64,000 bases of DNA, taken from assembly GCA_930367215.1 (NCBI GenBank), contig OV884059.1:63831393-63895392 (forward strand), read 5' to 3'. Position 1 is the stretch's first letter. The number at the start of each line of letters is the position of its first letter. Origin of the DNA: Pollenia angustigena. Its lineage: Eukaryota; Arthropoda; Insecta; Diptera; Polleniidae. The position numbers and the translations under genes are program-made. The notes under the pieces are model-generated. The model worked only from the letters and a program-made list of their open reading frames with translations. It did no database searches and had not been told where the DNA came from. Shown one piece after another: positions 9,563-33,464 of the stretch.

Positions 9563-9916
9563 TAAGGGGTACACAAAACTCAAAAACCTTGCACTAATAA
9601 AGGACAGATAAAATATAAGATCGGTCAAAAGCAAAAAATCATCATATAATAGTCATCCAATATACAGCAAATTTAATTGTATCAGCCGTTTAAAAAAATA
9701 AAATAAGTTTAAAATAGGTTTTAAGGCAGAATGTTCATGCGCTGTAATTCACAGTAATTTTTTATGAATACGGCAGGATATTTTTAAAAACCTTCTTTAC
9801 CTTTAAAACTTCGTAAATAAAAAAAGAGGGACAATTTTTCACAATGGCAACGCTGATGTAATGCAACTCTGTGTGCAATTTTGTACACTAACACATTCTT
9901 ACATTAATATGTATTA

Positions 9917-10496
9917 CAGTGTTACCAGTGAAATTTCGAGAAAGATACATTTTAGTTTCCAAAATGATACCCTTTTTCCCAAATAGATACATTTTGAAAA
10001 AAATTTGAATATCCATTTCTAACGTTTAACTTTTATTAACATAACATTTTTTTTTTATATTTAATGACTATTTTTAAGATAATGATATCATATAAATTCA
10101 TTTTTATATCTATTTAAGTCATAAATATAGGGTACCTATGTAATTTTTAAGCAAACATTAAAATAATTTAAATGTAACTATCTTTGGATGTTAATAAAAC
10201 AAATTGGATGTTATTAATTTATAAAAATTAACATATACACAAGAATAAGCAGACGACAGAAGAACTTAGAAAACTTAACAGCAACATAAAACATTTTAGT
10301 TGTCACTGTTTTTTAGTATTCATAACAAAATATCTTTGAAAAACTTTGCCAGAAACAGAAAGTTAAATATTTTATTTCTGTACATTTTGCGTGCTGATTA
10401 AAAAAAAAAAAACATAAAATCTTAGGATTATACATGGTACCTGAAGTCATCAAAAGATACGAAAAATGTATCTTTCGTATCCTAATGGCATCACTG
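9917..10496. mobile_element. hAT-like nonautonomous element (copy A)
   Basis: The left end CAGTGTTACCAGTGAAATTT followed by GAAAGATACATTTT is mirrored by the right end, which in reverse complement reads CAGTGATGCCATTAGG followed by GAAAGATACATTTT. CAGTG(T/A)(T/G)(A/G)CC resembles hAT termini. GATAC motifs repeat just inside both ends. No 8-bp target duplication is visible, and the right end abuts the 330-bp satellite block. Confidence 0.6.
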
Positions 10497-10499
10497 ACG

Positions 10500-13170
10500 A
10501 AGCCATTATCCCTAGGGGGTTAAAATGTATGAGCGACCTCTATTAGTTTTTTGGCCCAATATTCTCTATAAATATACTTGCACCTTATCTGCACCCCGTA
10601 GGAAGGCACCCATACAAATATGGTGGTTTAGTGAAATTCTTAAAGTGGCCCTTGCAGAGCGTAGGGTGCTCCTAGACGGGTAAAATCTATGACCAACCTT
10701 ACTTTATTTTAAATCTCCATTATTTATTTCTAACATACCTAACCGCTATCTCCTTTCCTTAAGGGGGCTCCCATATAAAATTTTCAATACAGTCTAGAAA
10801 TATATTGAAGAAAAAGACCCATAACTGGCCAGGAATCGTCCCTAGGTGGATAACATGTATGACCGACTTCTATTAGTTTTTTGGCCCCAACATTTTCTTT
10901 AAATATACTTGCACCTTATCTGCACCCCGTAGGTAGGCTCCCATACAAATATGGTGGTGGTTCAGTGAAATTTTAAAAGTGGCCTCTGCAGAGCGTAGGG
11001 TGCTCCTAGACGGGTAAAATCTATGACCAACCTTACCTTATTTTTCATCTCTATCATTTATTTCTTACATACCTAACCGCTATCTCCATTCCTTAAGGGG
11101 GCTCCCATATAAAATTTGCATTACAGTCTAGAAATATATTGAAGAAAAATATCCATAACTGCCCAGGAATCGCCCTTAGGGGGATAAAATATACGACCGA
11201 CCTATATTAGTTTTTCGGTTCCAACCTTTTCTTTAAATATACTTGCAACTATCTCAACCCCTTAGGGAGGCTCTCATACAAATATGGCGGTTTAATAAAA
11301 TTCTTAAAGTTGGCCCCTGCAGAGCGTGGGGTGCTCCTAAACGGGTCAAATCTATGACGGACCTTACTTTATTTTTCATCTCCATCACTTATTTCTAACA
11401 TACGTAACCCCTATCTCCATTCCTTAAGGGGGCTCCCATACAAAATGTGCAATACAGCCTAGAAATTTATTGAAGTAAACGTCCCATAACTGCCCAGGAA
11501 TCGCCACTAGGGGGATAAAATGTATGACCGACCGCTATTAGTTTTTTATCCTCAACATTTTCTTTAAACATACTTGCAACTTTTCTGTACCCCGTAGGGA
11601 GGCTCCCATACAAATATGGCGGTTTAATGAAATTCTTAAAGTTGGCCCCTGCAGAGCGTAGGGTGCTCCTAGATGAGTCAAATCTATGACCAACCTCACT
11701 TTATTTTTCATCTCCATTATTTATTTCTAACATACCTAACCGCTCTCTCCATTCCTTAAGGGGGCTCTTATATAAAATTTTCAATACATTCTAGAAATAT
11801 ATTGAAGAAAAAGACCCATAACTGACCAGGAATCGTCCCTAGGGGGTAAAAATGTATGACCGACTTCTATTAGTTTTTCGGCCCTAACATTTTTTTAAAT
11901 ATACTTGCACCTTATCTGCACCCCGTAGGTAGGCTCCCATACAAACATGGTGGTTTTTTGAAATTCTTAAAGTGGCATCTGCAGAGCGTAGGGTGCTCCT
12001 AGACGGTTCAAATCTATGACGAACCTCACTTTATTTTTCATCTCCATCATTTATTTTTTACATACCTAGCCGCTATCTCCATTCCTTAAGGGGGCTTCCC
12101 TATACAATTTTCAATACAGTCTAGAAATATATTGAAGAAAAATATCCATAACTGCCCAGGAATCGCCCCCAGGGGGATAACATGTATGACCGACCCCTAT
12201 TAGTTTTTTGGCTCCAACATTTTCTTTAAATATACTTGCACCTTATCTTAACCCCTTAGGGAGGTTCTCATACAAATATGGCGGTTTAATAAAATTATTA
12301 AAGTTGGCCCCTGCAGAGCGTATGGTGCTCCTAGACGGGTCAAATCTATGACGAGCCTTACTTTATTTTTCATCTCCATCATTTATTTCTAACATACATA
12401 ACCCCTATCTCCATTCCTTAAGGGGGCTCCCATACAAAATGTTCAATACAGCCTAGAAATCTATTGAAGTAAACGTCCCATAACTGCCCAGGAATCGCCC
12501 CTAGGGGGATAAAATGTATGACCGACCGCTATAAGTTTTTTATCCTCTACATTTTCTTTAAACATACTTGCAACTTTTCTGTACCCCGTAGGGAGACTCC
12601 CATACAAATATGGCGGTTTAATGAAATTCTTAAAGTTGGCCCCTGCAGATCGTAGGGTGCTCCTAGATGAGTCAAATCTATGACCAACCTCACTTTATTT
12701 TTCATCTCCATCATTTATTTCTAACATACCTTACTGTTATCTCCATTCCTTAATGGGGCTCCCATATAAAATTTTCAATACAGTCTAGAAATATATTGAA
12801 GAAATAGACCCAAAACTGCCCATGAATCGCCCCTAGAGAGATAAAATGTATGACCGGCCTCTATTAGTTTTTTGGCCCCAACATTTTCTTTAAATATACT
12901 TGCACCTCATCTCTACCCCTTATGGAGGCTCCTATACAAATATGGCGGTTTAATGAAATTCTTAAAGTTGGCCCCTGCAGCGCGTAGGATGCTCCTAGAC
13001 GGGTCAAATGTATGACCAACCCCACTTCATTTTTTATCCCCACAATATGTTTCTAAGATATCTACCCGCTTTCTACATTCCTTAAGGGGGCTACCATACA
13101 GACTAGAAAAATGTTGCAGAAAAGTCCCATAGCTGCCCAGGACGCGCCCTTTGGGTGATAAAATATATGG
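10500..13170 (+). repeat. ~330-bp satellite, eight monomers (copy A)
   Basis: Head-to-tail units of about 325-335 bp. Landmarks are CCTAGGGGGATAAAATGTAT, TTAGTTTTTTGGCC, CCCATACAAATATGG, CCCCTGCAGAGCGTAGGGTG and CCTTAAGGGGGCTCCCAT. The GTGCTCC(T/C)A landmark falls near 10,668, 10,998, 11,333, 11,670, 11,990, 12,330, 12,660 and 12,990. It is more GC-rich than its surroundings. A lone reversed monomer occurs at about 45,000-45,420. Confidence 0.93.
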
Positions 13171-13326
13171 CAAACAAATGTATGACAAACAAACAAATTT
13201 ATTAAAAACAAACAAACAGATTAATTATTGGTTGTTTTTGTTTGGCTGCAGGTCCAAGTAAAGAAATAAAAATTAAAAACTTGTGATTTTTGTTTTTAAG
13301 TTTTTATTTTTAATTCCCAATATTTC

Positions 13327-13343
13327 GGTTAGCGTCGCTAACC
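13327..13343. other. Short perfect hairpin GGTTAGCG-T-CGCTAACC
   Basis: An 8-bp perfect stem with a single-base loop, just after AATATTTC. On the minus strand it reads GATGGTTAGCGACGCTAACC followed by GAAATATT, the style of hairpin near the 3' end of several retroelements. In copy B (32,596-32,612) one base differs (GGTTGGCG). Confidence 0.6.
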
Positions 13344-13435
13344 ATCTTTAGGGGTATGTAAACAATTAAAAAATAATAACAAAACTTCACAAAAGCAACT
13401 GTTTAACTTGCTATAAGATTTTCTTAACTGAATGA

Positions 13436-13612
13436 AACAATCAAATAAACAAGCAAACAAACAAACAAACAAACATCCGAACAAACAAACTAACAAACTA
13501 CAAACAAGCATACGAACAGACTTACAGACATTCAAATAAATAAACATTACAATATCATTACAACCAACAAACATACGAACAGACAGACAGACATACATAC
13601 ATACAAAAAAAA
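13436..13612. repeat. AAAC, GACA and ATAC microsatellites (copy A)
   Basis: Tetranucleotide tracts: (AAAC)n-rich sequence at 13,436-13,510, then GACAGACAGACA and ATACATACATAC near 13,576-13,605. The long minus-strand reading frame here (13,338-13,718) is rich in Leu, Phe, Cys and Val because of the repeat and is not a gene. The rest of 13,171-14,178 is AT-rich and without recognisable features. Confidence 0.85.
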
Positions 13613-14173
13613 AATAACATTCCAATATCTTTATATGTACACATGTATATCTAAAAAAAACGATAATGATTTTCAGTGGTAACACGTTTTGTTTATGCTT
13701 TTTGTAAGAAATGCACATGTGTACTTAAAAGGTGGTCTAAGTATTACAACCAATACAACAACAAGCATAGACAAATGGGATTAAAAAGTAAACAGCTGTT
13801 TCTTACTACCCACCTTGGATATAATGCTTAATCTCTAAAAACAAAGAAAAAACGCAAAAGCACAGAATTAATGGCGTCAAATGTATTAATTTAAAATTGA
13901 AAATATGGCAGCACACGAATGGAAAATTTTAAATAAAAATTAAAAATGTAGGCATTTATTTAGAGTCTATAAATTAATGGATACGTTATTTTTAAAAAGA
14001 ATTAAAAGTAAATTAACAATCAAAAAAAAAAAAATTTTTTAAAAAATAGTACTCAAAGTGTTATGTGCCCAAAATCTACTGGTGGTATACGATTTTTTTG
14101 GGCACCGTCCTCAAAGAATGCAAATGTTCCCAAAAAATACGGTAGCTCGAAAAAAAGTGCCGAAAAAGCACGC

Positions 14174-14178
<5 letters not shown>

Positions 14179-14208
<30 letters not shown>
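14179..14208. repeat. (AT)n tract at the copy A/B junction
   Basis: A 30-bp AT dinucleotide run flanked by inverted sequence (GCACGCTGTGC on the left, GCACAGAGTGT on the right), so the tract lies in an imperfect palindrome. It is the last sequence shared by copies A and B. Confidence 0.9.
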
Positions 14209-14211
<3 letters not shown>

Positions 14212-14569
14212 CACAGAGTGTATTTCGGGCACGTGAAATTTTTTCACTTTTTTTAACGGAATCTACAAAATTTTTGAAAATCGGGCATATAGATTCAAAT
14301 ATTTTGCCCTTATTCTTAGAAAAATCGGAGGAAAATCGTTTTTAGCATAAAGCGTATTTTTAGGGTACATTGCTCTACATTGTGTACATTTAAAGGACGA
14401 GTGCCGAATCTGTACACTATGCATATGAAAATTTTTGTTGCCACATATTTCATAAAAAACTGCGTTTTTTATTCCGCCATCATGTTTTTCATTATTGAAA
14501 AACAGTGCTACCGCTGTGATTATTGGAAAACAATGTTACCGTTGTGATACTAAAGTATCGATTTTTGTT
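14209..14569. other. AT-rich noncoding spacer between (AT)n and minisatellite
   Basis: No gene seen. It contains a short diverged tandem pair near 14,490-14,550: GATTATTGAAAAACAGTGCT-type and GATTATTGGAAAACAATGTT-type units. The partner in the preceding unit would be outside the window. Confidence 0.6.
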
Positions 14570-15774
14570 TTTTTGTTAATTTCTTAATATGTTAATTTGT
14601 TTATTGGTTTTTTTGTTTATTTGTTGATTTGTTTATTTATTTGTTTTTTTGCCTATTTATTTGTTTTTTTGTTAATTTGTTTGTTTGTTTATTTGTTAAT
14701 TTCTTTATTTGGGTATTTGTTTATTTGTTTATTTGTTTGTTTGTTTATTTGTTAATTTCTTTATTTGGGTATTTGTTTATTTGTTAATTTGTTTATTTGT
14801 TAATTTGTTTATTTGTTAATTTGTTTATTTGGGTATTTGTTTATTTGTTTATTTAGTAATTTGTTAATTTGTTTATTTTTTTATTTGTTAATTTGTTATT
14901 TTTTTATTTGTTAATTTGTTTATTTGTTAATTTGTTATTTTTTTTATTTGCTTTTTTGTTTATTTGTTAGTTTGTTTGTTTGTTAATTTGTTTATTTGTA
15001 AATTTGTAAATTTGTTTATTTGTTTATTTTTTAATTTGTTTATTCGTTTATTTGTTTATTTGTTAATTTGCTTATTTGTTTATTTGTTAATTTGTTTATT
15101 CGTTTATTAGTTTGTTCGTTTATATGTTAATTGGTTAATTTGTTTATTTGTTTGTTTGTTTATATGTTTTTTTGTTTATTGGTTTATTTGTTAATTTGTT
15201 TATTTGGGTATTTGTTTATTTGTGTATTTGTTAATTTGTTTATTTGGGTATTTGTTTATTTGTTAGTTTGTTTATTTGTTAATTTGTTTATTTTTAAATT
15301 TGTTTATTTGGGTATTTGTTTATTAAGTAATTTGTTAATTTGCTTATTTGTTTATTTTTTTATTTGTTAATTTGTTTGTTCGTGTATTTGTTAATTTGTT
15401 AATTTGTTTGTTTGTTAATTTGTTTATTCGTTTGTTCGTTTATTTGTTAATTTGCTTTTTTGTTTATTTGTTTATTTGTTAATTTTTTAAATTTTTAATT
15501 TGTTTATTTGTTAATTTGTTTATTTGCTTATTTTTTAATTTGTTTATTCGTTTGTTCGTGTATTTGTTAATTGGTTTATTTGTTGATTTGTTAATTTGTT
15601 AATTTGTTAATTTGCTTATTTGTTTATTTGTTTATTTGCTTAGTTATTTATCTGTTTATTTGTTTTTTTGTTAGTTTGTTTATTTGTTTATTTGCTTGTT
15701 TGTTTTTTTGTTTATTTGTTTATTTGCTTATTTGTTGATTTGTTTATTTGCTTATTTGCTTATTTGTTTGTTTG
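14570..15774. repeat. 1.2-kb TTTGTTTATTTGTTAA-type minisatellite
   Basis: An almost pure mixture of TTTGTTTA and TTTGTTAA 4- to 8-base modules with occasional GGTA, CGTT or GCTT variants, running to GTTTGCAACATATG. Open frames at 15,131-15,370 and 15,684-15,869 (Leu/Phe/Val/Cys repeats) arise from the repeat. Confidence 0.95.
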
Positions 15775-16861
15775 CAACATATGTTTTTCATAAATTTCAC
15801 GAATTTCCGATAAAAAATACAACTGAAAAATGTGAAAAAATGCATTTTCTAGGAATGATATACATATGAGGAATTATGCATTAGAGACTATTTTTTTCTG
15901 AAGATTACCGTGTGGCAGCTACAGGCCAAAAATGGTGCAAAAAAATATATAAATTAAAATTTTTCTACATTTTAGCATTTTTGAGGCATTAGATGCAATT
16001 TTTCGGATTATTTTGTTCTACTTTTTTCTCCTTATATTCTGTAGGCTACAATTGTAGCAAAAATAATTTCTAGCCAAGATTTTGACATGAGAAAAAAAAC
16101 GCAAAAACTAGCAAAACGCAAAAGGGTTTCGTTGGTTGCGATAAGTGCTTCGAGAAATTCCACACGAGAAAGAGTTTGAAGTCGATATCCTTAAATATTT
16201 GGACAATTGACCAAAAATTGTGAAATATTTGTAAAAATTTTATATTTTAGCAATTTTAATGCACTAACTACAGTTTTTCATTGCCATTTTTTTTTTAAAG
16301 CTTTCCTTCTCCTAGTTTATAGCTAAGATTATGGCGAAGACAAGAAAACAAAGTTTCTAATTGGTTTTCGAGGTGAAGGGTATATTATATAAAATATAAT
16401 AAAAAAATTGTTAGAACCAAAATTTATTATTGAATAAAAAGTGCTTAAAGTAGTTAAAAGTAAAACTATAACGTGTTTCATAAGGGCGTTATCAAAATCG
16501 AACATTTGAACAGAACATTACATTATTCAACATAAGACTTTGAAGAGTTAACTCTAAAATCGATTTCATCATCTTTAGATACTTTAGCACCTAAAAAAAT
16601 ATAAGTAATTGGGATCTTTAAGGTATGAAGTATATATGGAGTAAACAAAATTAAACAACTTAACAGTAATAAAGGACAGATACTATCTAAGATTGCATCC
16701 TTTCATCTAATATACTGCAAATTTTAGTTTATTATTATATATGAAAATCTTAATAAAAATTTTAAACATTTTTACGTCTAAAAATACTTATAAAAAAAAT
16801 AACATGACAAATGGTAACGCTGGTAATATGCAACTCTGTGTGTTCTTTCTACACTGCTGCT
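15775..16861 (-). mobile_element. Element E, copy 2: truncated and inverted
   Basis: This is the reverse complement of the first ~1.1 kb of element E (matches about 24,876-25,935). It includes the terminal AACGCTG/TGCAACTCTGTGTG motif at 16,817-16,840 and AGCAGCAGTGTAG-type sequence on the minus strand. By eye it is only about 75-80% identical to copy 3. The truncation point is the junction with the TTTG minisatellite, at TTTGCAACATATG. Confidence 0.8.
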
Positions 16862-16920
16862 AATTTAGCTATTTTCTCGTCAAATCCAGCGATTTTTAAT
16901 AAAATTTTACTGGAATAAAT

Positions 16921-19900
16921 AATTTAATTTAAAAAATATGGTTTTTAGCAATTTATAGCTTAATTAACTTATTATTTAAAAAATGTTGCTATTTTAATTG
17001 TCTTTGTTTTATAATATTTCAATAATTTTATTTAAAAAAGGGTGGTTTTTAGAGATTTATAGCTAAATTTAACTTTTATTTAAAAAATTTAGCTATTTTT
17101 GCTTGTTTGTTTTATAATATTCTAATAATTTTATTTCAAAAAGGTTGGTTTTCAGCTATTCATGGCTAAATTTACCTATTATTTAAAAAAAATTAGCTAT
17201 TTTAGCTTATTTGTTTTATAATATTTCAATATTTTTATTTCAAAAAGGGTGGTGTTTTTCAGTGATTTTTAGCTAAATTTACCTATTATTAAAAAAATGT
17301 AGCTATTTTTGCTTGTTTGTTTTATAATATTTCAATAATTTTATTTCAAAAAGGGTGGTTTTTAAAGATTTATAGCTAAATTTATCTATTATTTAAAAAA
17401 TTTAGCTATTTTAGCTTATTTGTTTTAGATTATTTCAATATTTTTATTTCAAAAAGGGTGGTGTTTTTCAGCGATTTTTAGCTAAATTTACCTATTAAAA
17501 AAATGTAGCTATTTTTGCTTGTTTGTTTTATAATATTTCAATAATTTTATTTCAAAAAGGGTGGTTTTCAGCGATTTATAGCCAAATTTACCTATTTTTA
17601 AAAAAATTTAGCTATTTTTACTTGTTTGGTTTTAAATATTTCAATAATTTTATTTCAAAAAGGGTGGTTTCAGCGATTTATAGCTAAATTTACCTATTTT
17701 TAAAAAAATTTAGCTATTTTTACTTGTTTGTTTTATAATATTTCAATAATTTTATTTCAAAAAGGGTGGTTTTCAGCGATTTATAGCTAAATTTACCTAT
17801 TATTAAAAAATTTTTGCTATTTTTACTTGTTTGTTTTATAATATTTCAATAACTTTATTTCAAAAAGGGTGCTTTTTAACGATTTATAGCTAAATTTACC
17901 AATTATTTAAAAAATTTAGCTATTTTTGCTTGTTTGTTTTATAATATTTCAATAATTTTATTTCAAAAAGGGTGGTTTTCAGCGATTTATAGCTAAATTT
18001 ACCAATTATTTTAAAAATTTAGCTATTTTTGCTTGTTTGTTTTATAATATTTCAATATTTTTATTTCAAAAAGGGTGGTTTTTAAAGATTTATAGCTAAA
18101 TTTACCAATTATTTAAAAAATTTAGCTATTTTTGCTTGTTTGTTTTATAATATTTCAATAATTTTATTTCAAAAAGGGTGGTTTTCAGCGATTTATAGCC
18201 AAATTTACCTATTTTTAAAAAAATTTTGCTATTTTTACTTGTTTGGTTTTTAATATTTCAATAATTTTATTTCAAAAAGGGTGGTTTTCAGCGATTTATA
18301 GCTAAATTTACCTATTATTAAAAAAATTTAGCTATTTTTTCTTGTTTGTTTTATAATATTTCAATAATTTTATTTCAAAAAGGGTGGTTTTCAGCGATTT
18401 ATAGCTAAATTTACCTATTATTAAAAAAATTTAGCTATTTTTATTTGTTTGTTTTATAATATTTCAATAATTTTATTTCAAAAAGGGTGGTTTTCAGCGA
18501 TTTATAGCTAAATTTACGTATTATTAAAAAAATTTAGCTATTTTTTCTTGTTTGTTTTATAATATTTCAATAATTTTATTTCAAAAAGGTTGGTTTTCAG
18601 CGATTTATAGCTAAATTTACCTATTGTTAAAAAAATTTAGCTATTTTTGCTGTTTGTTTTATAATATTTCAATAATTTTATTTCAAAAAGGGTGGTTTCC
18701 AGCGATTTATAGCTAAATTTACCTATTATTTAAAAAATTTAGCTATTTTTGCTTGTTTGTTTTACAATATTTCAATAATTTTATTTCAAAAAGGGTGGTT
18801 TTCAGCGATTTATAGCTAAATTTACCTATTATTATAAAAATTTAGCTATTTTTGTTTGTTTGTTTTATAATATTTCAATAATTTTATTTCAAAAAGGGTG
18901 GTTTTCAGCGATTTATAGCTAAATTTACCTATTATTATAAAAATTTAGCTATTTTTGCTTGTTTGTTTTATAATATTTCAATAATTTTATTTCAAAAAGG
19001 GAGGTTTTCAGCGATTTATAGCTAAATTTACCAATTATTTTAAAAATTTAGCTATTTTTGCTTGTTTGTTTTATAATATTTCAATATTTTTATTTCAAAA
19101 AGGGTGGTTTTTAACGATTTATAGCTAAATTTACCAATTATTTAAAAAATTTAGCTATTTTTGCTTGTTTGTTTTATAATATTTCAATAATTTTATTTCA
19201 AAAAGGGTGGTTTTCAGCGATTTATAGCCAAATTTACCTATTTTTAAAAAAATTTAGCTATTTTTACTTGTTTGGTTTTTAATATTTCAATAATTTTATT
19301 TCAAAAAGGGTGGTTTTCAGCGATTTATAGCTAAATTTACCTATTATTAAAAAAATTTAGCTATTTTTTCTTGTTTGTTTTATAATATTTCAATAATTTT
19401 ATTTCAAAAAGGGTGGTTTTCAGCGATTTATAGCTAAATTTACCTATTGTTAAAAAAATTTAGCTATTTTTGCTTGTTTGCTTTATAATATTTTAATAAT
19501 TTTATTTCAAAAAGGGTGGTTTTCAGCGATTTATAGCTAAATTTACCAATTATTTTAAAAATTTAGCTATTTTTGCTTGTTTGTTTTATAATATTTCAAT
19601 AATTTTATTTCAAAAAGGGTGGTTTTCAGCGATTTATAGCTAAATTTACCTATTATTATAAAAATTTAGCTATTTTTGTTTGTTTGTTTTATAATATTTC
19701 AATAATTTTATTTCAAAAAGGGTGGTTTTCAGCGATTTATAGCTAAATTTACCTATTGTTAAAAAAATTTAGCTATTTTTGCTTGTTTGTTTTATAATAT
19801 TTCAATATTTTTATTTCAAAAAGGGTGGTTTTTAAAGATTTATAGCTAAATTTACCAATTATTTAAAAAATTTAGCTATTTTTGCTTGTTTGTTTTATAA

Positions 19901-21835
19901 TATTTCAATAATTTTATTTCAAAAAGGGTGGTTTTCAGCGATTTATAGCCAAATTTACCTATTTTTAAAAAAATTTAGCTATTTTTACTTGTTTGGTTTT
20001 TAATATTTCAATAATTTTATTTCAAAAAGGGTGGTTTTCAGCGATTTATAGCTAAATTTACCTATTATTAAAAAAATTTAGCTATTTTTTCTTGTTTGTT
20101 TTATAATATTTCAATAATTTTATTTCAAAAAGGGTGGTTTTCAGCGATTTATAGCTAAATTTACCTATTATTAAAAAAATTTAGCTATTTTTACTTGTTT
20201 GTTTTATAATATTTCAATAATTTTATTTCAAAAAGGGTGGTTTTCAGCGATTTATAGCTAAATTTACGTATTATTAAAAAAATTTAGCTATTTTTTCTTG
20301 TTTGTTTTATAATATTTCAATAATTTTATTTCAAAAAGGTTGGTTTTCAGCGATTTATAGCTAAATTTACCTATTGTTAAAAAAATTTAGCTATTTTTGC
20401 TGTTTGTTTTATAATATTTCAATAATTTTATTTCAAAAAGGGTGGTTTCCAGCGATTTATAGCTAAATTTACCTATTATTTAAAAAATTTAGCTATTTTT
20501 GCTTGTTTGTTTTACAATATTTCAATAATTTTATTTCAAAAAGGGTGGTTTTCAGCGATTTATAGCTAAATTTACCTATTATTATAAAAATTTAGCTATT
20601 TTTGCTTGTTTGTTTTATAATATTTCAATAATTTTATTTCAAAAAGGGTGGTTTTCAGCGATTTATAGCTAAATTTACCAATTATTTTAAAAATTTAGCT
20701 ATTTTTGCTTGTTTGTTTTATAATATTTCAATATTTTTATTTCAAAAAGGGTGGTTTTTAACGATTTATAGCTAAATTTACCAATTATTTAAAAAATTTA
20801 GCTATTTTTGCTTGTTTGTTTTATAATATTTCAATAATTTTATTTCAAAAAGGGTGGTTTTCAGCGATTTATAGCCAAATTTACCTATTTTTAAAAAAAT
20901 TTAGCTATTTTTACTTGTTTGGTTTTTAATATTTCAATAATTTTATTTCAAAAAGGGTGGTTTTCAGCGATTTATAGCTAAATTTACCTATTATTAAAAA
21001 AATTTAGCTATTTTTTCTTGTTTGTTTTATAATATTTCAATAATTTTATTTCAAAAAGGGTGGTTTTCAGCGATTTATAGCTAAATTTACGTATTATTAA
21101 AAAAATTTAGCTATTTTTTCTTGTTTGTTTTATAATATTTCAATAATTTTATTTCAAAAAGGGTGGTTTTCAGCGATTTATAGCTAAATTTACCTATTGT
21201 TAAAAAAATTTAGCTATTTTTGCTGTTTGTTTTATAATATTTCAATAATTTTATTTCAAAAAGGGTGGTTTCCAGCGATTTATAGCTAAATTTACCTACT
21301 ATTTAAAAAATTTAGCTATTTTTGCTTGTTTGTTTTATAATATTTCAATAATTTTATTTAAGAAAGGGCGGTTTTTATCGATTGATAACTAAATTTAACT
21401 ATTATTTAAAAAATTTTGCTATTTTTTCTTGTTTGTTTTATAATATTTCAATAATTTTATTTCAAAATGGGTGGTTTTTTGCGATTAATACCTAAATTTA
21501 CCTGTTTTAAATTTAGCTATTTTTGCTTGTTTGTTTTATAATCATTCAATAATTTTATTTCAAAAAGGGTGGTTTTCAGCGATTTATAGCTAAATTTACC
21601 TATAATTTAAAAAATTTTGCTATTTGTGCTTGTTTGTTTTATAATATTTCAATAATTTTATTTAAGAAAGCGTGGTTTTTATCGATTGATGGCTAAATTT
21701 AACTATTATTTAAACAATTTTGCTATTTTTTTTTGTTTGTTTTAAAATATTTCAATATTTTTATTTAGAAAAGGGTGGTTTTTATCGATTGATAGCTAAA
21801 TTTAACTATTATTTAAAATAATTGAGCTATTTTAT
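16921..21835 (+). repeat. ~104-bp satellite array, monomeric arm (copy B)
   Basis: About 47 head-to-tail monomers of the same family as 1-2,026. Some multi-monomer blocks recur inside it: the series around 18,100-18,700 closely matches the series around 19,800-20,450, indicating block duplication. The first units (16,921-17,140) are more diverged, as expected at an array edge. Confidence 0.95.
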
Positions 21836-24795
21836 ATTTAGTTATAAACCAATTAAAACCAACCTTTTTGAAAAGAAATAATTGAAATATTATAACACAA
21901 ACACAAAATTTGTGTTATACACAATATAAAATAGCTCAATATTTTAAATAGAAAGTATATTAGGACATAAATCGCTAAAATCGCTCTTTTTAAAAAGAAA
22001 TTATTGAAATATTATAACACAAACACAATATAAAATAGCACAATATTTTAAATATAAAGTATATTTAGTCATAAATCGTTAAAAACCACCCTTTTTGAAA
22101 AGAAATTATTGAATTATTATTAATGAAACACAATAAAAAATAGCTCAAAATTTTAAATGGAAAGTATATTTAGACATAAATCGCTAAAATCGACCTTTTT
22201 AAAAAGAAATTATTGAAATATTATAACACAAACACAATATAAAATAGCACAATATTTTAAATAGAAAGTATATTTAGTCATAAATCGCTAAAAACCACCC
22301 TTTTTGAAAATAAATTATTGAATTATTATTAATGAAACACAATAAAAAATAGCTCAAAATTTTAAATAGAAAGTATATTTAGACATAAATCGCTAAAATC
22401 GCCCTTTTTAAAAAGTAATTATTGAAATACTATAACACAAACACAATATAAAATAGCACAATATTTTAAATAGAAAGTATATTTAGTCATAAATCGCTAA
22501 AAACCACCCTTTTTGAAAATAAATTATTGAATTATTATTAATGAAACACAATAAAAAATAGCTCAAAATTTTAAATGGAAAGTATATTTAGACATAAATC
22601 GCTAAAATCGCTCTTTTTAGAAAGAAATTATTGAAATATTATAACACAATATAAAATGGAACAATATTTTAAATAGAAAGTATATTTAGACATAAATCGC
22701 TAAAATCGCCCTTTTTAAAAAGTAATTATTGAAATATTATAACACAAACACAATATAAAATAGCACAATATTTTAAATAGAAAGTATATTTAGTCATAAA
22801 TCGCTAAAAACCACCCTATTTGAAAAGAAATTATTGAATTATTATTAATGAAACACAATAAAAAATAGCTCAAAATTTTAAATGGAAAGTATATTTAGAC
22901 ATAAATCGCTAATATCGACCTTTTTAAAAAGAAATTATTGAAATATTATAACACAAACACAATATAAAATAGCACAATATTTTAAATAGAAAGTATATTT
23001 AGTCATAAATCGCTAAAAACCACCCTTTTTGAAAAGAAATTATTGAATTATTATTAATGAAACACAATAAAAAATAGCTCAAAATTTTAAATGGAAAGTA
23101 TATTTAGACATAAATCGCTAAAATCGACCTTTTTAAAAAGAAATTATTGAAACATTATTACACAAACACAATATAAAATAGCACAATATTTTAAATAGAA
23201 AGTATATTTAGTCATAAATCGCTAAAAACCACCCTTTTTGAAAAGAAATTATTGAATTATTATTAATGAAACACAATTAAAAATAGCTCAAAATTTTTAA
23301 AAGGAAAGTATATTTAGACATAAATCGCTAAAATCGCTCTTTTTAAAAAGAAATTATTGAAATATTATAACACAAACACAATATAAAATAGCACAATATT
23401 TTAAATAGAAAGTATATTTAGTCATAAATCGCTAAAAACCACCCTTTTTGAAAAGAAATTATTGAATTATTATTAATGAAACACAATAAAAAATAGCTCA
23501 AAATTTTAAATGGAAAGTATATTTAGTCATAAATCGCTAAAAACCACCCTTTTTGAAAAGAAATTATTGAATTATTATTAATGAAACACAATATAAAATA
23601 GCACAATATTTTAAATAGAAAGTATATTTAGTCATAAATCGCTAAAAACCACCCTTTTTGAAAAGAAATTATTGAATTATTATTAATGAAACACAATAAA
23701 AAATAGCTCAAAATTTTTAAAAGGAAAGTATATTTAGACATAAATCGCTAAAATCGCTCTTTTTAAAAAGATATCATTGAAATATTATAACACAAACACA
23801 ATATAAAATAGCACAATATTTTAAATAGAAAGTATATTTAGTCATAAATCGCTAAAAACCACCCTTTTTGAAAAGAAATTATTGAATTATTATTAATGAA
23901 ACACAATAAAAAATAGCTCAAAATTTTAAATGGAAAGTATATTTAGACATAAATCGCTAAAATCGACCTTTTTAAAAAGAAATTATTGAAATATTATAAC
24001 ACAAACGCAATATAAAATAGCACAATATTTTAAATAGAAAGTATATTTAGTCATAAATCGCTAAAAACCACCCTTTTTGAAGAGAAATTATTGAATTATT
24101 ATTAATGAAACACAATAAAAAATAGCTCAAAATTTTAAATGGAAAGTATATTTAGACATAAATCGCTAAAATCGACCTTTTTAAAAAGAAATTATTGAAA
24201 TATTATAACACAAACACAATATAAAATAGCACAATATTTTAAATAGAAAGTATATTTAGTCATAAATCCCTAAAATCGCCCTTTTTGAAAAGAAATTATT
24301 GAAATATGGTAAAACAAACACAAAAAAAAAAAATAGCTCAATATTTTAAATAGAAAGTATTTATAGTCATAAATCGCTAAAAAGCACCCTTTTTGAAATA
24401 AAATTATTGAATTATTATTAATGAAACACAATAAAAAATAGCTCAAAATTTTTAATAGAAAGTATATTTAGTTATAAACCAATAAAAACCGCCCTTTTTG
24501 AAAAGAAATAATTGAAATATTATAACACAAACACTATAAATCCCTAAAATCGCCCTTTTTGAAAAGAAATTATTGAAATATGGTAAAACAAACACAATAA
24601 AAAATAGCTCAATATTTTAAATAGAAAGTATATTTTGTTATAAACCAATAAATACCACCCTTTTTGAAAAAATGATTGAAATAATATAACAGAAACGCAA
24701 TAAAAAATAGCTCAATATTTTAAATAGAAATTATATTTAGTTATAAATCGCTAAAAACCACCCTTTTTGAAAAGAAATTATTGAAATTTTATATA
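21836..24795 (-). repeat. Inverted ~208-bp dimeric satellite array (copy B)
   Basis: Same organisation as 2,027-5,690 without the MITE. Diverged units occur at the right edge near 24,300-24,795. Some dimers are missing or added relative to copy A. Confidence 0.93.
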
Positions 24796-26693
24796 ATTTA
24801 GCGATAAAACGCCAAAAAGTTTAACTAATAAATTTTATTTAAATTCGCTGGTTTTGACAAGAAAATTGCTACATTAGCAGCAGTGTAGAAATAAACACAC
24901 AGAGTTGCACTTGAACAGCGTTGCCATTTGTCATATTTTCCCTTTTTTTTAAATATTGTTAGACGTGCACATGTTTAAAATTTGTATAAAGATTTTTGTC
25001 AATATATAATCTAATCTTTGCAGTATATTAGATGAAAACGTTAAGTGAAGTTAAGTGCAACAAAGCTATCTTAGATTCTATCTGCTTTATTACTGTTACG
25101 TTGTTTAATTTTGTTTACTCCTTCAATACTTCATACCTTAACGATCACAAATGTATTCTTTAAGGTGCTGAAGTATCTAAAAATGATGAAATCGACTTTA
25201 GTGTTCACTGTTCAAAGTCTTATATTGAATTATGCAATGTTCTGTTCAAAAGTTAAATTTTAATAATGACCGTCTGTAACAAGTTGTAGTTTTACTTTTT
25301 ATTACTTTAAGCACTTTTTATTCTATAATGAATTGGCTCTAAAAAAATTTTATTGTATTTTATTATTAATAAAAATGTACCAAGGTTTTTTTATGCACCC
25401 GTTCCATGCTCTTTATCTCGGAAACCATTTAGCATTTTGTTTTCTTGTCTTCACCATAATCTTAGCTATAAAGCTAAAACAAAATAAGCGTAAAAACAGT
25501 ATTTAGTGAATTAAAATTGCTAAAATATTAAACTTTTAAATATTTTGCACTATTTTTGGCCCATAGTCCAATTTTTCAAACTCTTTCTCGTGTGGAATTT
25601 CTCGAAGTACTTTTCGTAACCAACGAAGCTTTTGCGTTTTGCTAGTTTTTATTTTATTTTTCTCATATCTAAATCTCGGAAAGCAATTATTTTCGCCATA
25701 ATTGTAGCTATAGACTCTTAGAAAATAAGTAGAACAAAATAATCCGAAAAAATTTATCTAAAGCCTCAAAAACATTTTTGGCCCGTAGCTGCCAAACGGT
25801 AATCTTCAGAAAAAATACTCCTTTTACTCTAATTCATAATTCCTCATATATAGTTACTGAAAAATGCATTTTTTCACATTTTTCAGTTGTATTTTTTATC
25901 GGAAATTCGTGAAATTTATGAAATACATTGCAAAAGGTAAAAACGTAAATTATCCAATAATAATTTTTTACACATATTTCGAATTTTCGATATAAATACA
26001 GCTGAAAAATGTAAAAAAAGAATTATGATGTTCTAAAGAATTTTGAATTATATTATAAGAATAATTTTTTTGAATAGAACTTTACTAAAGTATCCACAGT
26101 TTGGCCGCGGCGGGCCATGAATGTTAAAAAAATAAATTAAAATTTGTCGACATTTTAGCAATTCTATGGCGCTAGCTGCAGTTTTTTTGCGTTAGTTCGT
26201 TATACAATTTTTGTCTCCTAGTGTAAAGCTGCAATTATTAAAACAAAATCATAATTGGTTTCTGAAAAATATGCATGTTTAAAAAATAAAAAAATCAAGG
26301 GTTAGCCAAAATTTTCAAAAAGTACAAATTTGTAACAGCTTTCTCTTCAGATGTACTATATTTGTTTGCTGTCTCTATGATAAGGAACACAATTGCACCG
26401 TATGAACGTAGTAGTCTACGACGTAGATACGATGTCAAATTAATATGTATACTATTGTATACAAAGGCACACAATAGCTGGCGCAAATCTAAAAGCGTAT
26501 CTACGTCGTACGTCGCCTTACAGAAAATTCAGACGGGGGCTTTTACAACTTCTCTTTTGGTTTGGTGGCTAACGGTTAAGTGAAGATAGAGGGGTAAACA
26601 AAAATACTTGGTTTGTGTTTTTCATGACTTTTTCTCAGATTTATCTTTCAACTTATTTATTTTCTTATCGTTACGTTTTATAAATTGAAAATA

Positions 26694-26818
26694 CAGTAAG
26701 TCCTCGATCATCCATAGCAACAATTTTGAGTAGTTTTTTGTGTGTTTCTAATTAAGTTACAAACGAATAGTGTTGCATCTGCCGGTTAATCGAATGACAG
26801 ATAATCGAGGCGCTTCTG
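26694..26818. mobile_element. Short pogo/Tigger-like MITE remnant (copy B)
   Basis: Duplicate of 7,553-7,677 with the same ends, carried along by the segmental duplication rather than inserted independently. Confidence 0.5.
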
Positions 26819-27092
26819 CAAATAAAAAATACGTAACTTTAAATCATCGTATAAACACAAAGGATTTTTGAAAGTTGCTGGAGAAGGGAAATAAAAATTG
26901 AAAATTTAAATTAAATTATTTTTGTGTTCTCAAATTGAATATTTGATAACAACATAAACCAAGTAAAAAATTAACAAAAATTTAGATTTTTTTAAGATTA
27001 TTTTCAAAAGAAAACTCGATTTGTGTACGACGGAATTGTAAGTAAATAGATCGTGTTTTAAAAAATGTACGACCGTTAACTTACGTTCTTAA

Positions 27093-27218
27093 GGGCCATT
27101 ATTATAACTTGGCGTTAGCTGTTATCCGACAGTTAACAGACGCTTTTTGGCAGATAACACATTATTATCTGTCAATTTAATCTTAACTTTAGCTAACTTT
27201 AAGTTGTAATAATGGCCC
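27093..27218. mobile_element. 126-bp MITE, copy B only, TAA target duplication
   Basis: Inverted ends GGGCCATTATTATAACTT and, on the other strand, GGGCCATTATTACAACTT, continuing into GTTAGCT. They are flanked by TAA (27,090-27,092 and 27,219-27,221). Copy A (7,945-7,955) shows the uninterrupted site TTCTTAAGTGG. The 3-bp TAA duplication suggests a PIF/Harbinger-type element. Confidence 0.93.
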
Positions 27219-27220
27219 TA

Positions 27221-27555
27221 AGTGGCTCATACACTTGCAATAAAATTGTTAAATTTTAAGTATTGTACAATTATATCGATGTGTATGTGATATTCGAAGG
27301 TAACACATTATATTGGCAACAATCAAAAGACATTTGATTTGTATTGCACAACGAAAAGAAACTGAAATTTGTTGCTAACATTGTACAATGCTGTTGATGT
27401 TATTCATAAAGGTTATGTATGTACACCTTTTTTTTAATGAAAGTTGAGCAATATTTAAATTTAAACCATTGTGCGACTTATTGCATAATTTACGACAAAA
27501 TGGAAATAATATGGAGAATATCATATACAATAATATTGCAAGTGTATGGGCCGCT
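27221..27555. mobile_element. MITE with TTA target duplication (copy B)
   Basis: Duplicate of 7,951-8,284. Its left edge was hit by a second, later MITE (27,093-27,218) whose TAA duplication overlaps the first base of this element. Confidence 0.7.
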
Positions 27556-27831
27556 TTACAACGTTCTTATGTGTTTTTGCTGCCTTTATCGTAAAGAACA
27601 TAGGTTTCAATTTTAAGCAAAATTGTTAAAAACAAGTGTTTACAAAAAGTACCCAAAAGTAGGACTTTTTACACCTGTTTTATCTTCTTGTCTTTTTTCC
27701 TAAACCTTTGCGTAGCAATTACAAATAAACACACAGAGGGAAGTAAAAAAAACCACATAAAAAGATGTAAGAAAATTAAATAAAAAAAATATATTTTTAT
27801 TTAAAAAAAAATGATAACAAGAAACTATTTA

Positions 27832-28337
27832 CAGTCAAATCCCGATAAGTCGTACCCCGGTAAATCGTTATTCCCGATAACTGTCGGTCCTTTGAAAAAA
27901 TCTCGTTATTTCGTAAAATTTCCATACATTTTGCTCCCCTCGCTAATTATAAATTTTTTTTCAAATAAAATCTTCTTTATCTCTTATAAATCGTAATTGT
28001 TTGCTAACTACCACTTATCATTCATAATAAAAACAACAGAAACATGGAAAGAATAATTTTTTGTTTACCGCTTTGTTTTTTGTGGGTTTTTGCTTGTGTG
28101 TGTGTTTATTTTCTTAATATCAGTTTGTTACATGTATAATTTTTATATATTTTATTTTCAACAATTGTTTTTTATGTTTTTTTTTTTATCGTTTAAGTAA
28201 ATAAATTGAAAACCCCCTTTAATTCGTATTTTTTTTATTTTAACCCCGTTAAATCGAAAGCCCGCTAAATCAAAAGCCCCTATAATTCGTAGGAAATTGC
28301 TGGTCCCTTTCGATTACGAATTATCGGGATTCTACTG
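27832..28337. mobile_element. pogo/Tigger-like nonautonomous element (copy B)
   Basis: A 506-bp duplicate of 8,561-9,064 with the same TA-flanked ends. It differs by a few bases and homopolymer lengths. Confidence 0.85.
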
Positions 28338-28687
28338 TATTTCAAAAATAAAAACATAATTCATATAAGCAGATCTTTAAAATGACACATATCGCTTTTG
28401 TTCAACAATAGTGTATTAATCCAACATTTCTGTTTAAATTCATATTTGGTATAGATTTGGTAACGACAAAATATATATTATGGAAAAAATTCAGACTCAT
28501 CGTAATATCTTACTTTGGAGACGCAAAAATTTCCAATATTTTGCTCTTTCCATTAAATATGTTCCTTAAAGTTTAAATGTAGTAGGTCAATCCACTCACT
28601 AAGTGTGAGTTAATTGGTAAAAAAGTGCGAGTGTATTAAAACTTGATCGCGCAACCCTTAATTAAGGCATTAAGGGGTACACATTAA

Positions 28688-28835
28688 GTCCCAATTCACA
28701 CGTTGCAAGTCTTATTGATCAGCTTGCTACTTTTTAACGAGAGTGAAGAGAGGAAAATAAACGTTTCTCTCTCACTCTCTCTCGCCTATAAGGTAGCAAG
28801 CTGGTCAATAAGACTTGCAACGTGTGAATTGGCAC
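28688..28835. mobile_element. 148-bp hairpin MITE with TAA target duplication (copy B)
   Basis: Duplicate of 9,415-9,562 with the same arms and the same TAA flanks. Confidence 0.8.
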
Positions 28836-29189
28836 TAAGGGGTACACAAAACTCAAAAACGTTGCACTAATAAAGGACAGATAAAATATAAGATCGGTCA
28901 AAAGCAAAAAATCATCATATAATAGTCATCCAATATACAGCAAATTTAATTGTATCAGCCGTTTAAAAAAATAAAATAAGTTTAAAATAGGTTTTAAGGC
29001 AGAATGTTCATGCGCTGTAATTCACAGTAATTTTTTATGAATACGGCAGGATATTTTTAAAAACCTTCTTTAACTTTAAAACTTCGTAAATAAAAAAAGA
29101 GGGACAATTTTTCACAATGGCAACGCTGATGTAATGCAACTCTGTGTGCAATTTTGTACACTAATACATTCTTACATTAATATATATTA

Positions 29190-29769
29190 CAGTGTTACCA
29201 GTGAAATTTCGAGAAAGATACATTTTAGTTTCCAAAATGATACCCTTTTTCCCAAATAGATACATTTTGAAAAAAATTTGAATATCCATTTCTAACGTTT
29301 AACTTTTATTAACATAACATTTTTTTTTTTATATTTAATGACTATTTTTAAGATAATGATATCATATAAATTCATTTTTATATCTATTTAAGTCATAAAT
29401 ATAGGGTACCTATGTAATTTTTAAGCAAACATTAAAATAATTTAAATGTAACTATCTTTGGATGTTAATAAAACAAATTGGATGTTATTAATTTATAAAA
29501 ATTAACATATACACAAGAATAAGCAGACGACAGAAGAACTTAGAAAACTTAACAGCAACATAAAACATTTTAGTTGTCACTGTTTTTTAGTATTCATAAC
29601 AAAATATCTTTGAAAAACTTTGCCAGAAACAGAAAGTTAAATATTTTATTTCTGTACATTTTGCGTGCTGATTAAAAAAAAAAAACATAAAATCTTAGGA
29701 TTATACATGGTACCTGAAGTCATCAAAAGATACGAAAAATGTATCTTTCGTATCCTAATGGCATCACTG
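29190..29769. mobile_element. hAT-like nonautonomous element (copy B)
   Basis: Duplicate of 9,917-10,496 with the same ends and position relative to the satellite block. Confidence 0.6.
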
Positions 29770-29772
29770 ACG

Positions 29773-32440
29773 AAGCCATTATCCCTAGGGGGTTAAAATG
29801 TATGAGCGACCTCTATTAGTTTTTTGGCCCAATATTCTCTATAAATATACTTGCACCTTATCTGCACCCCGTAGGAAGGCACCCATACAAATATGGTGGT
29901 TTAGTGAAATTCTTAAAGTGGCCCTTGCAGAGCGTAGGGTGCTCCTAGACGGGTAAAATCTATGACCAACCCTACTTTATTTTTAATCTCCATTATTTAT
30001 TTCTAACATACCTAACCGCTATCTCCTTTCCTTAAGGGGGCTCCCATATAAAATTTTCAATACAGCCTAGAAATATATTGAAGAAAAAGACCCATAACTG
30101 GCCAGGAATCGTCCCTAGGTGGATAACATGTATGACCGACTTCTATTAGTTTTTTGGCCCCAACATTTTCTTTAAATATACTTGCACCTTATCTGCACCC
30201 CGTAGGTAGGCTCCCATACAAATATGGTGGTTAAGTGAAATTCTAAAAGTGGCCTCTGCAGAGCGTAGGGTGCTCCTAGACGGGTAAAATCTATGACCAA
30301 CCTTACCTTATTTTTCATCTCTATCATTTATTTCTTACATACCTAACCGCTATCTCCATTCCTTAAGGGGGCTCCCATATAAAATTTGCATTACAGTCTA
30401 GAAATATATTGAAGAAAAATATCCATAACTGCCCAGGAATCGCCCTTAGGGGGATAAAATATACGACCGACCTATATTAGTTTTTCGGTTCCAACCTTTT
30501 CTTTAAATATACTTGCACCTATCTCAACCCCTTAGGGAGGCTCTCATACAAATATGGCGGTTTAATAAAATTCTTAAAGTTGGCCCCTGCAGAGCGTGGG
30601 GTGCTCCTAAACGGGTCAAATCTATGACGGACCTTACTTTATTTTTCATCTCCATCACTTATTTCTAACATACGTAACCCCTATCTCCATTCCTTAAGGG
30701 GGCTCCCATACAAAATGTGCAATACAGCCTAGAAATTTATTGAAGTAAACGTCCCATAACTGCCCAGGAATCGCCACTAGGGGGATAAAATGTATGACCG
30801 ACCGCTATTAGTTTTTTATCCTCAACATTTTCTTTAAACATACTTGCAACTTTTCTGTACCCCGTAGGGAGGCTCCCATACAAATATGGCGGTTTAATGA
30901 AATTCTTAAAGTTGGCCCCTGCAGAGCGTAGGGTGCTCCTAGATGAGTCAAATCTATGACCAACCTCACTTTATTTTTCATCTCCATTATTTATTTCTAA
31001 CATACCTAACCGCTATCTCCATTCCTTAAGGGGGCTCTTATATAAAATTTTCAATACATTCTAGAAATATATTGAAGAAAAAGACCCATAACTGACCAGG
31101 AATCGTCCCTAGGGGGTAAAAATGTATGACCGACTTCTATTAGTTTTTCGGCCCTAACATTTTTTTAAATATACTTGCACCTTATCTGCACCCCGTAGGT
31201 AGGCTCCCATACAAACATGGTGGTTTTTTGAAATTCTTAAAGTGGCATCTGCAGAGCGTAGGGTGCTCCTAGACGGTTCAAATCTATGACGAACCTCAAT
31301 TTATTTTTCATCTCCATCATTTATTTCTTACATACCTAGCCGCTATCTCCATTCCTTAAGGGGGCTTCCCTATACAATTTTCAATACAGTCTAGAAATAT
31401 ATTGAAGAAAAATATCCATAACTGCCCAGGAATCGCCCCCAGGGGGATAACATGTATGACCGACCCCTATTAGTTTTTTGGCTCCAACATTTTCTTTAAA
31501 TATACTTGCACCTTATCTCAACCCCTTAGGGAGGTTCTCATACAAATATGGCGGTTTAATAAAATTATTAAAGTTGGCCCCTGCAGAGCGTATGGTGCTC
31601 CTAGACGGGTCAAATCTATGACGAGCCTTACTTTATTTTTCATCTCCATCATTTATTTCTAACATACATAACCCCTATCTCCATTCCTTAAGGGGGCTCC
31701 CATACAAAATGTTCAATACAGCCTAGAAATCTATTGAAGTAAACGTCCCATAACTGCCCAGGAATCGCCCCTAGGGGGATAAAATGTATGACCGACCGCT
31801 ATAAGTTTTTTATCCTCTACATTTTCTTTAAACATACTTGCAACTTTTCTGTACCCCGTAGGGAGACTCCCATACAAATATGGCGGTTTAATGAAATTCT
31901 TAAAGTTGGCCCCTGCAGATCGTAGGGTGCTCCTAGATGAGTCAAATCTATGACCAACCTCACTTTATTTTTCATCTCCATCATTTATTTCTAACATACC
32001 TTACCGTTATCTCCATTCCTTAATGGGGCTCCCATATAAAATTTTCAATACAGTCTAGAAATATATTGAAGAAATAGACCCATAACTGCCCATGAATCGC
32101 CCCTAGAGAGATAAAATGTATGACCGGCCTCTATTAGTTTTTTGGCCCCAACATTTTCTTTAAATATACTTGCACCTCATCTCCACCCCTTATGGAGGCT
32201 CCTATACAAATATGGCGGTTTAATGAAATTCTTAAAGTTGGCCCCTGCAGCGCGTAGGATGCTCCTAGACGGGTCAAATGTATGACCAACCCCACTTTAT
32301 TTTTTATCCCCACAATATGTTTCTAAGATATCTACCCGCTTTCTCCATTCCTTAAGGGGGCTACCATACAGACTAGAAAAATGTTGCAGAAAAGTCCCAT
32401 AGCTGCCCAGGACGCGCCCTTGGGTGATAAAATATATGGC
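29773..32440 (+). repeat. ~330-bp satellite, eight monomers (copy B)
   Basis: Duplicate of 10,500-13,170 with the same eight monomers in the same order. Unlike the 104-bp arrays, the monomer number has not changed since duplication. Confidence 0.93.
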
Positions 32441-32704
32441 AAACAAATGTATGACAAACAAACAAATTTATTAAAAACAAACAAACAGATTAATTATTGG
32501 TTGTTTTTGTTTGGCTGCAGGTCCAAGTAAAGAAATAAAAATTAAAAACTTGTGATTTTTGTTTTTAAGTTTTTATTTTTAATTCCCAATATTTCGGTTG
32601 GCGTCGCTAACCATCTTTAGGGGTATGTAAACAATTAAAAAATAATAACAAAACTTCACAAAAGCAACTGTTTAACTTGCTAAAAGATTTTCTTAACTGA
32701 ATGA

Positions 32705-32900
32705 AACAATCAAATAAACAAGCAAACAAACAAACAAACAAACAAACAAACAAACAAACATCCGAACAAACAAACTAACAAACTACAAACAAGCATACGG
32801 ACAGACTTACAGACATTCAAATAAATAAACATTACAATATCATTACAACCAACAAACATACGAACAGACAGACAGACATACATACATACAAAAAAAAAAA
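32705..32900. repeat. AAAC, GACA and ATAC microsatellites (copy B)
   Basis: Duplicate of 13,436-13,612 with a longer AAAC tract, showing slippage since duplication. The remaining 32,441-33,464 is AT-rich noncoding sequence like copy A. Confidence 0.85.
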
Positions 32901-33464
32901 ATAACATTCCAATATCTTTATATGTACACATGTATATCTAAAAAAAACGATAATGATTTTCAGTGGTAACACGTTTTGTTTATGCTTTTTGTAAGAAATG
33001 CACATGTGTACTTAAAAGGTGGCCTAAGTATTACAACCAATACAACAACAAGCATAGACAAATGGGATTAAAAAGTAAACAGCTGTTTCTTACTAACCAC
33101 CTTGGATATAATGCTTAATCTCTAAAAACAAAGAAAAAACGCAAAAGCACAGAATTAATGGCGTCAAATGTATTAATTTAAAATTGAAAATATGGCAGCA
33201 CACGAATGGAAAATTTTAAATAAAAATTAAAAATGTAGGCATTTATTTAGAGTCTATAAATTAATGGATACGTTATTTATAAAAAGAATTAAAAGTAAAT
33301 TAACAATCAAAAAAAAAAAAATTTTTTAAAAAATAGTACTCAAAGTGTTATGTGCCCAAAATCTACTGGTGGTATACGATTTTTTTGGGCACCGTCCTCA
33401 AAGAATGCAAATGTTCCCAAAAAATACGGTAGCTCGAAAAAAAGTGCCGAAAAAGCACGCTGTG

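Follow-up and report, generated by a model that had tools for sequence, protein, structure and literature searches.

Transposons that settle in TA microsatellites have been described in plants, where SaTar, MuTAnT, Micron and TAFT are Mutator-like or linked to Mutator-like elements (MULEs) and target such tracts (PMC5907723, PMC4486113; here and below, statements on cited papers refer to the sections consulted). Tandem repeats in a non-autonomous element, arranged as opposed arrays and showing a satellite-like expansion, are in turn described for Tetris of Drosophila virilis (PMC4079207). Here we report, in a 64,000-nucleotide stretch of Pollenia angustigena DNA (the window; C4:63,831,393-63,895,392 of a 1.37-Gb genome in 31 contigs), a palindrome of opposed satellite arrays at 15,775-25,935. 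We interpret it, with a probability of roughly 0.86, as the core of a DNA transposon of the terminal inverted repeat (TIR) type that is large, was amplified recently, has no recognisable coding content and inserts into (TA)n.

Like the members of the SaTar/MuTAnT group, which are largely non-autonomous, lie between (TA)n on both sides and form end-to-end stacks that include other families (PMC5907723, PMC4486113), the element has (TA)n on both flanks and stacks end to end, also with other families. In target choice and stacking it works like SaTar and MuTAnT, the likeness being one of target habit. However, SaTars measure about 0.4-1.9 kb (5.3 kb for the autonomous one) and MuTAnT 0.2-1.6 kb (4.9 kb for the autonomous one), whereas this insect element spans 16.5-39 kb. 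Furthermore, members of that group outside microsatellites have target-site duplications (TSDs) of 9-10 bp and a MULE transposase is known, whereas here no transposase was found and no TSD was readable.

Unlike the element described here, whose arms are internal, several kilobases long and present in about 100 copies, Tetris carries its arrays in the TIRs, the whole TIR measuring at most 1,735 bp, with a TSD of 8-10 bp and three structurally complete copies (PMC4079207). Galileo, of the P superfamily, also has long, internally repetitive inverted arms of variable length, but these are its TIRs, the TSD is 7-8 bp in D. willistoni, and transposase-coding P-superfamily copies are known (PMC3573991, PMC4168063). 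Kilobase-scale opposed arrays of a ~110-bp unit with conserved inversion sites form the macro-dyad satellites of Tribolium, a symmetry documented exclusively in Tribolium according to that report; they occupy megabase, probably (peri)centromeric regions, whereas ours belong to a dispersed transposon of another insect (PMC13081366). The ATon elements of Aedes aegypti resemble our element in being TIR-bearing, non-autonomous insect elements with an AT-specific target and many identical copies, but ATon-I and ATon-II are 112 and 144 bp long, share a terminal ATAGGCC and target single AT dinucleotides (PMC3422177). Finally, giant transposons match it in size, near or above 20 kb, but there the limit is set on the internal coding region and excess coding capacity is stressed (PMC6431247), whereas our element has no recognisable coding content. 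The literature screened, mostly titles and the beginnings of abstracts, contained no description of this element or of a palindromic satellite on a dispersed transposon.

Anatomy of the element and its palindromic core

A 601-bp piece of the left array gave 296 genome matches (40 of 887 candidates scored), the best nine of which lie on C1-C5 at 99-100% identity. From 30-kb stretches around six satellite loci and the 20 kb upstream of the window, we annotated eight copies of the surrounding sequence. The left boundary of homology is identical in all eight (TTGCACAGAGTGTATTTCGGGCAC, window 14,209) and the right boundary in the seven with the right end read (GTGCCGAAAAAGCACGCTGTGCA, 33,466), with TA tracts flanking them. 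Since these boundaries are common to the copies, the palindrome is internal to an element that measures 19,258 bp in copy B, which is complete (14,209-33,466, plus strand, from TTGCACAGAGTG to CACGCTGTGCA) and whose ends and modules are the same at seven other loci on C1-C5 (right end read at six of the seven).

The order of the modules is the same in all eight copies. In copy B (plus strand unless stated), it begins with the left end module, bearing an imperfect TIR, TGCACAGAGTGTATTTCGGGCAC (14,209-14,563; 41 listed matches at about 100%, 40 of 139 candidates scored), and a TTTG minisatellite of TTTGTTTA type (14,564-15,774; matched in 8/8 copies). These are followed by E, the left palindrome arm (15,775-16,917), the forward satellite (16,918-21,833; 48 monomers of 103 bp), the axis (21,834-21,918), the reverse satellite (21,919-24,797, minus strand; 27 monomers of 105 bp with a dimer period of 209 bp) and E', the right palindrome arm (24,798-25,935, minus strand). 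The E'' module (25,963-29,162), 620 bp of further sequence, about eight copies of a 332-bp satellite (29,783-32,438), and the tail with the right end and its imperfect TIR (32,440-33,466; reverse complement TGCACAGCGTGCTTTTTCGGCAC) complete the element. A TA-rich flank borders the right end (33,467-33,505), and on the left a shared (TA)n microsatellite of 29 bp (14,180-14,208) separates copy B from the right part of copy A (1-14,179, plus strand), a copy of 25,753 bp overall whose left end lies 11.6 kb left of the window at C4:63819819.

The sequence-only reading had described this locus as two opposed arrays of one satellite family enclosed by inverted copies of E, and all these parts are present. 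It had also extended the symmetry about 1.1 kb past the arrays, and E and E' indeed align over 1,197 columns (891 identical, 138 mismatches, 168 gaps), at 74.4% identity with gaps, or at 86.6% (BLAST) and 84.0% (MAFFT) of aligned bases; the score of 819 bits compares with 35.6 bits for the top of 100 dinucleotide-shuffled pairs. In copy B, the opposed satellite arms are 76.6% alike, against mean identities of 91.7% inside the forward and 87.5% inside the reverse arm. The axis, as read from the sequence, falls within one monomer, so that forward positions 1-65 face reverse positions about 43-1, and the hairpin fold of 300 nucleotides at this place has a z of -5.99, with none of 200 shuffles equally stable. 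The E/satellite junctions of the two arms are homologous, with identical monomer phase. The symmetry stops near 15,781/25,928, and just past it we found a third, more diverged relative of E in plus orientation (the E'' homologues at 25,966-26,265 and 28,822-29,162), which had gone unreported. As a TSD at the arm edges, the sole candidate seen was the palindromic TTGCAA near both E edges, in element-internal sequence, which is not convincing.

Across the eight copies, the forward array comprises 44-74 and the reverse array 16-61 monomers. For seven of the eight copies this makes 60 to 105 monomers in both arms together; the remaining one (c1_304, C1:304563517-304588849, L024-L026) holds about 137 and has two palindrome axes with forward-reverse-forward-reverse arrays, so that its core has itself been duplicated once. 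Compared with copy B, five of the seven others have identical sequence in the 233 bp around the axis (21,767-21,999), and the remaining two match it at 96.2% (c3_163) and 99.6% (c1_304); at both E/satellite junctions, identity to copy B is 98.7-100%. Some copies bear later insertions: c3_163 has one of 5.1 kb in its forward array, c3_39 one of 0.9 kb in E', c2_06 one of 1.3 kb in E, and copy A two, of 0.4 and 2.7 kb. Outside copies A and B, the window holds a lone inverted unit (44,984-45,264, minus strand) that is 77-81% related to the 332-bp satellite.

Dispersal, divergence and target sites

As in the TIR order of DNA transposons, precise inverted-repeat ends are common to dispersed copies of the element. 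The right-end pattern, TGCACAGCGTG, with TATAT included in the pattern, has 103 exact matches in the genome, and the TGCACAGAGTG-type left-end pattern, searched as 32 bases with up to three mismatches and no TA required, has 102; the reversed-pattern control gave none in either case. Among 100 listed left ends, 45 match exactly and another belongs to the same type; 53 show a change to TGCAGAG and one is odd. The diagnostic position thus separates two main subfamilies, with 46 listed ends for TGCACAG and 53 for TGCAGAG. Of 98 left ends tested, 86 have a right end in the matching orientation 16.5-39.4 kb away (52/53 for TGCAGAG and 34/45 tested for TGCACAG), with a median distance of about 22 kb in both subfamilies.

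A 33-mer specific to E matches the genome 223 times, about two per element, and the first 100 of these matches include 37 facing E(+)/E(-) pairs with a spacing of 6.0-20.1 kb. Thus the layout of E, satellite, inverted satellite and E, for which the earlier reading had suggested a genome-wide search, does recur elsewhere. A right end lies 6.0-12.1 kb further out in 33 of the 37 pairs, which indicates that E of the 33-mer form is nearly confined to the element. The sequence-only reading had added that satellite arrays standing elsewhere, with neither inverted partner nor E, would make the arrangement incidental. A partial test of this condition covered distance to element ends: of 36 places picked by hand to represent the listed satellite loci, 35 have a listed element end no more than 30 kb away, and the other (C5:51.69 Mb) is 5.2 kb from a left end. 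Clusters of element ends and E copies, many of the latter unpaired, were seen at C2:96.06-96.34 Mb and C1:130.8-131.0 Mb and may be pericentromeric.

These data bear on the view that the palindrome is a giant foldback element moving by itself, with E and satellite as its terminal inverted repeats in the style of FB, Tetris and Galileo. Tandem repeats do lie within the inverted arms, as in FB- and Tetris-like elements, and each arm has unique sequence on the outside and tandem repeats on the inside, which corresponds to the Tetris layout (PMC4079207). However, E is terminal in none of the eight copies: its outer edge lies 1.57-1.71 kb inside the left end in all eight, and that of E' 7.4-7.5 kb inside the right end in the seven read. 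Moreover, a palindrome that moved independently should often be found without the right end that accompanies 33 of the 37 facing pairs. For the copies read, this refutes a foldback as the unit that moves at present, and we regard the view as a whole as very unlikely. What stands of the foldback-like structure proposed by the earlier reading is thus the symmetry and the involvement of a transposon, whereas E is not the terminal repeat and the true ends are short inverted repeats of the TGCACAG type, inside (TA)n. The element moves as one unit, and the palindrome moves with it.

Divergence is low among most of the copies read. In 3.85 kb of single-copy sequence, 1-5 substitutions separate six of the eight from one another, while copy A and c1_304 stand 18-33 substitutions from these six and 32 from each other. 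This comparison also addresses the neighbouring position of copies A and B, which could be explained by one tandem duplication, or by two haplotypes assembled in series. In favour of such a duplication or artefact, A adjoins B, and the two share 98.9% identity across 6.3 kb of non-array sequence. Nevertheless, B is nearer to five of the six remote copies, on C2, C3 and C5 (2-5/3846; the sixth, 32/3713), than to A (20/3713). In addition, a 126-bp miniature inverted-repeat transposable element (MITE) inside E'' of copy B (27,093-27,218; TIR GGGCC, GGGCCATTATTA; TSD TAA, which we take to be a Harbinger-like target) is absent from A, where the site is empty, and c1_304 also lacks the same stretch. 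On the divergence between the copies, we reject a tandem or false haplotype duplication and consider it extremely improbable.

The target of the element is a (TA)n tract. In a further set of 15 copies, every one is flanked left and right by (TA)n, in tracts of 15-79 bp, and the exact left-end 23-mer follows TATATT in 38 of 46 cases, the remaining eight, read individually, also following TA tracts. Seven pairs of own-family ends within 100 bp were found by eye in the end lists, and one more was seen in L064; in four of the seven the left ends meet head-to-head at a distance of 66-82 bp, the other three are head-to-tail, and each pair shares one tract. Two insertions, L068 (C5:47.0 Mb) and L045 (C4:47.88 Mb), have by eye a similar flank beside the TA tract, once at the left end and once at the right, as if both had struck copies of one dispersed repeat.

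Helitrons start with 5' TC, end with 3' CTRR and have no TIR. The ends read of our element do not follow this pattern: both carry an inverted TGCACAG motif, and the right end finishes with CTGTGCA, not CTRR. We therefore consider it unlikely that rolling-circle machinery (Helitron or Helentron) moves the element instead of a cut-and-paste transposase, even though internal array expansion in Helitrons is called common (PMC12628747), and the report on the TIR-bearing Aedes ATon elements, which insert at AT dinucleotides, includes a helitron comparison section (PMC3422177).

A related clan and a proposed origin of the palindrome

Four stacked neighbours of the element (by L062, L063, L065 and c3_81) end in CTGTGCA(TA)n, with terminal sequence otherwise different. 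They are members of a second clan with the end types TGCACAGGGCATATTATGCGAACA and TGCACAGCGTTTATTTAGCGAACA, whose joint pattern has 352 matches in the genome (control, 0) and which has TGCACAG ends and (TA)n flanks in common with the element. On C1, 84 clan ends form 28 facing left/right pairs 7.2-23.4 kb apart, and 6 of 38 own-family ends lie within 150 bp of a clan end, where 0.003 were expected.

Of the clan copies, which number up to about 176, we read two in full. The first, L075 (8.7 kb), lies between (TA)n flanks and is arranged as sat(-)-E'(-)-E''(+), with 2.6 monomers of a 105-bp satellite followed by a single E' arm and E''. It lacks a second arm and matches the element piecewise at 74.5-88% identity. 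The second, of 11.3 kb on C3, is similar, with 2.7 monomers and one E arm. Two partly read clan right ends (L072, L073) match E'' and show no match to E'. Relative to one clan copy, E and E' are sisters: they are 16% apart, each is 26-27% from clan E, and the sites common to two of the three number 136 for E/E', 55 for E/clan and 44 for E'/clan.

These relationships allow us to weigh the idea that an ancestral TA-targeting transposon received an old foldback-like element in a single insertion and has kept it ever since. Nested elements are common, and E'' represents E-like sequence occurring more than once in the element. Yet the two clan copies have a single sat(-)-E' arm beside E'', in the same order and without a second arm, and E and E' are more closely related to one another than to clan E. 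Both observations agree better with an inverted duplication in place than with an insertion. Hence we find such a nested insertion quite unlikely.

Returning to a TA-targeting transposon with an internal palindrome, we propose that an ancestral non-coding element would have carried two or three monomers beside one E arm. This small array was probably inverted-duplicated together with E, the opposed arms becoming joined inside a monomer, and expanded afterwards; the arrays would have grown and homogenised separately, via unequal exchange or replication slippage. Another end sequence and the 332-bp array would have been gained, and the derived unit would then have spread to about a hundred sites, moved as a whole in trans by a transposase recognising TGCACAG ends and preferring (TA)n. 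Such a preference would bring copies into TA tracts beside older copies. With one E arm and 2.6-2.7 monomers in the two clan copies read, and with E and E' closer to each other than to clan E, the order is probably the reverse of that in the sequence-only reading, which had envisaged a satellite born between two inverted E copies.

Coding content, counterevidence and meaning

None of the eight element frames and none of the seven clan-copy frames reached the Pfam cut-off. The longest open frame within element modules has 128 amino acids (aa) in copy A and 97 aa in copy B, and L075 has no frame above 107 aa; other frames longer than 128 aa are those of 156-161 aa in the 5-kb insertion of c3_163 and one of 147 aa across the right end of c2_06. 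As candidates for an autonomous partner, three look-alike TIR matches of TATATNTGCACAG[G/T]GTG proved to be unrelated sequence. A transposase-like frame beside clan sequence in L072, presumably mariner-like, was attributed to an unrelated inserted element because it is near-identical, by eye, to a 219-aa frame in the E' insertion of c3_39. Rfam had no match at the gathering threshold within 14,000-34,000.

Elsewhere in the window, a reverse-transcriptase frame (RVT_1; 38,772-40,142, plus strand) and a piggyBac-type transposase frame (DDE_Tnp_1_7; 61,726-62,640, minus strand) belong to ordinary insect transposons. The latter adjoins a 163-aa frame (60,869-61,360, minus strand) with no Pfam match, which looks like the C-terminal part of the same transposase. 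Among the named protein matches seen for the reverse-transcriptase and piggyBac frames, most come from insects, with a frog and Hydra also in the piggyBac list, and none from a close species. A separate small foldback-like arrangement at 41,840-42,912 consists of opposed 82-bp GC-rich repeats (41,933-42,161 and 42,600-42,912, 85-90% alike) around a 440-bp middle.

Several observations weigh against our interpretation. The match between the two TIRs is good over about 11-20 bp only, a TSD is unreadable within (TA)n, no empty allele was seen, and no transposase was found in the frames tested of the element and the clan copy. Furthermore, no partner right end is listed for 12 of the 98 left ends tested, the 223 E matches are 19 more than two per left end, 26 of the first 100 are unpaired (11 of these clustering near C1:130.9 Mb and C2:96 Mb), and 4 of the 37 facing pairs have no right end nearby. 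As to the origin, the order of few monomers first and palindrome later rests on two clan copies, in which the loss of one arm could mimic it, and gene conversion between E and E' could give them their sister-like look.

A bolder and rather unlikely proposal is that of a clan of giant, wholly non-coding insect transposons with (TA)n as their only habitat, perhaps without any autonomous member and using an enzyme from the host or an unrelated element, in which the palindrome is functional and not cargo. If so, the conserved hairpin axis might aid excision, replication or heterochromatic protection, and selection on transposition would drive the birth, inversion and expansion of a satellite.

Altogether, the element makes the birth of a satellite within a transposon countable: a relative carries 2.6-2.7 monomers, and the derived family carries 60 to 105 in two opposed arms in all but one of the eight copies, so that array growth, inversion and homogenisation become traceable copy by copy. 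A non-coding unit of about 20 kb has been able to reach about a hundred sites, and most of the copies read have diverged very little. Likewise, the microsatellite-targeting, end-stacking habit of plant elements is now found in an insect.

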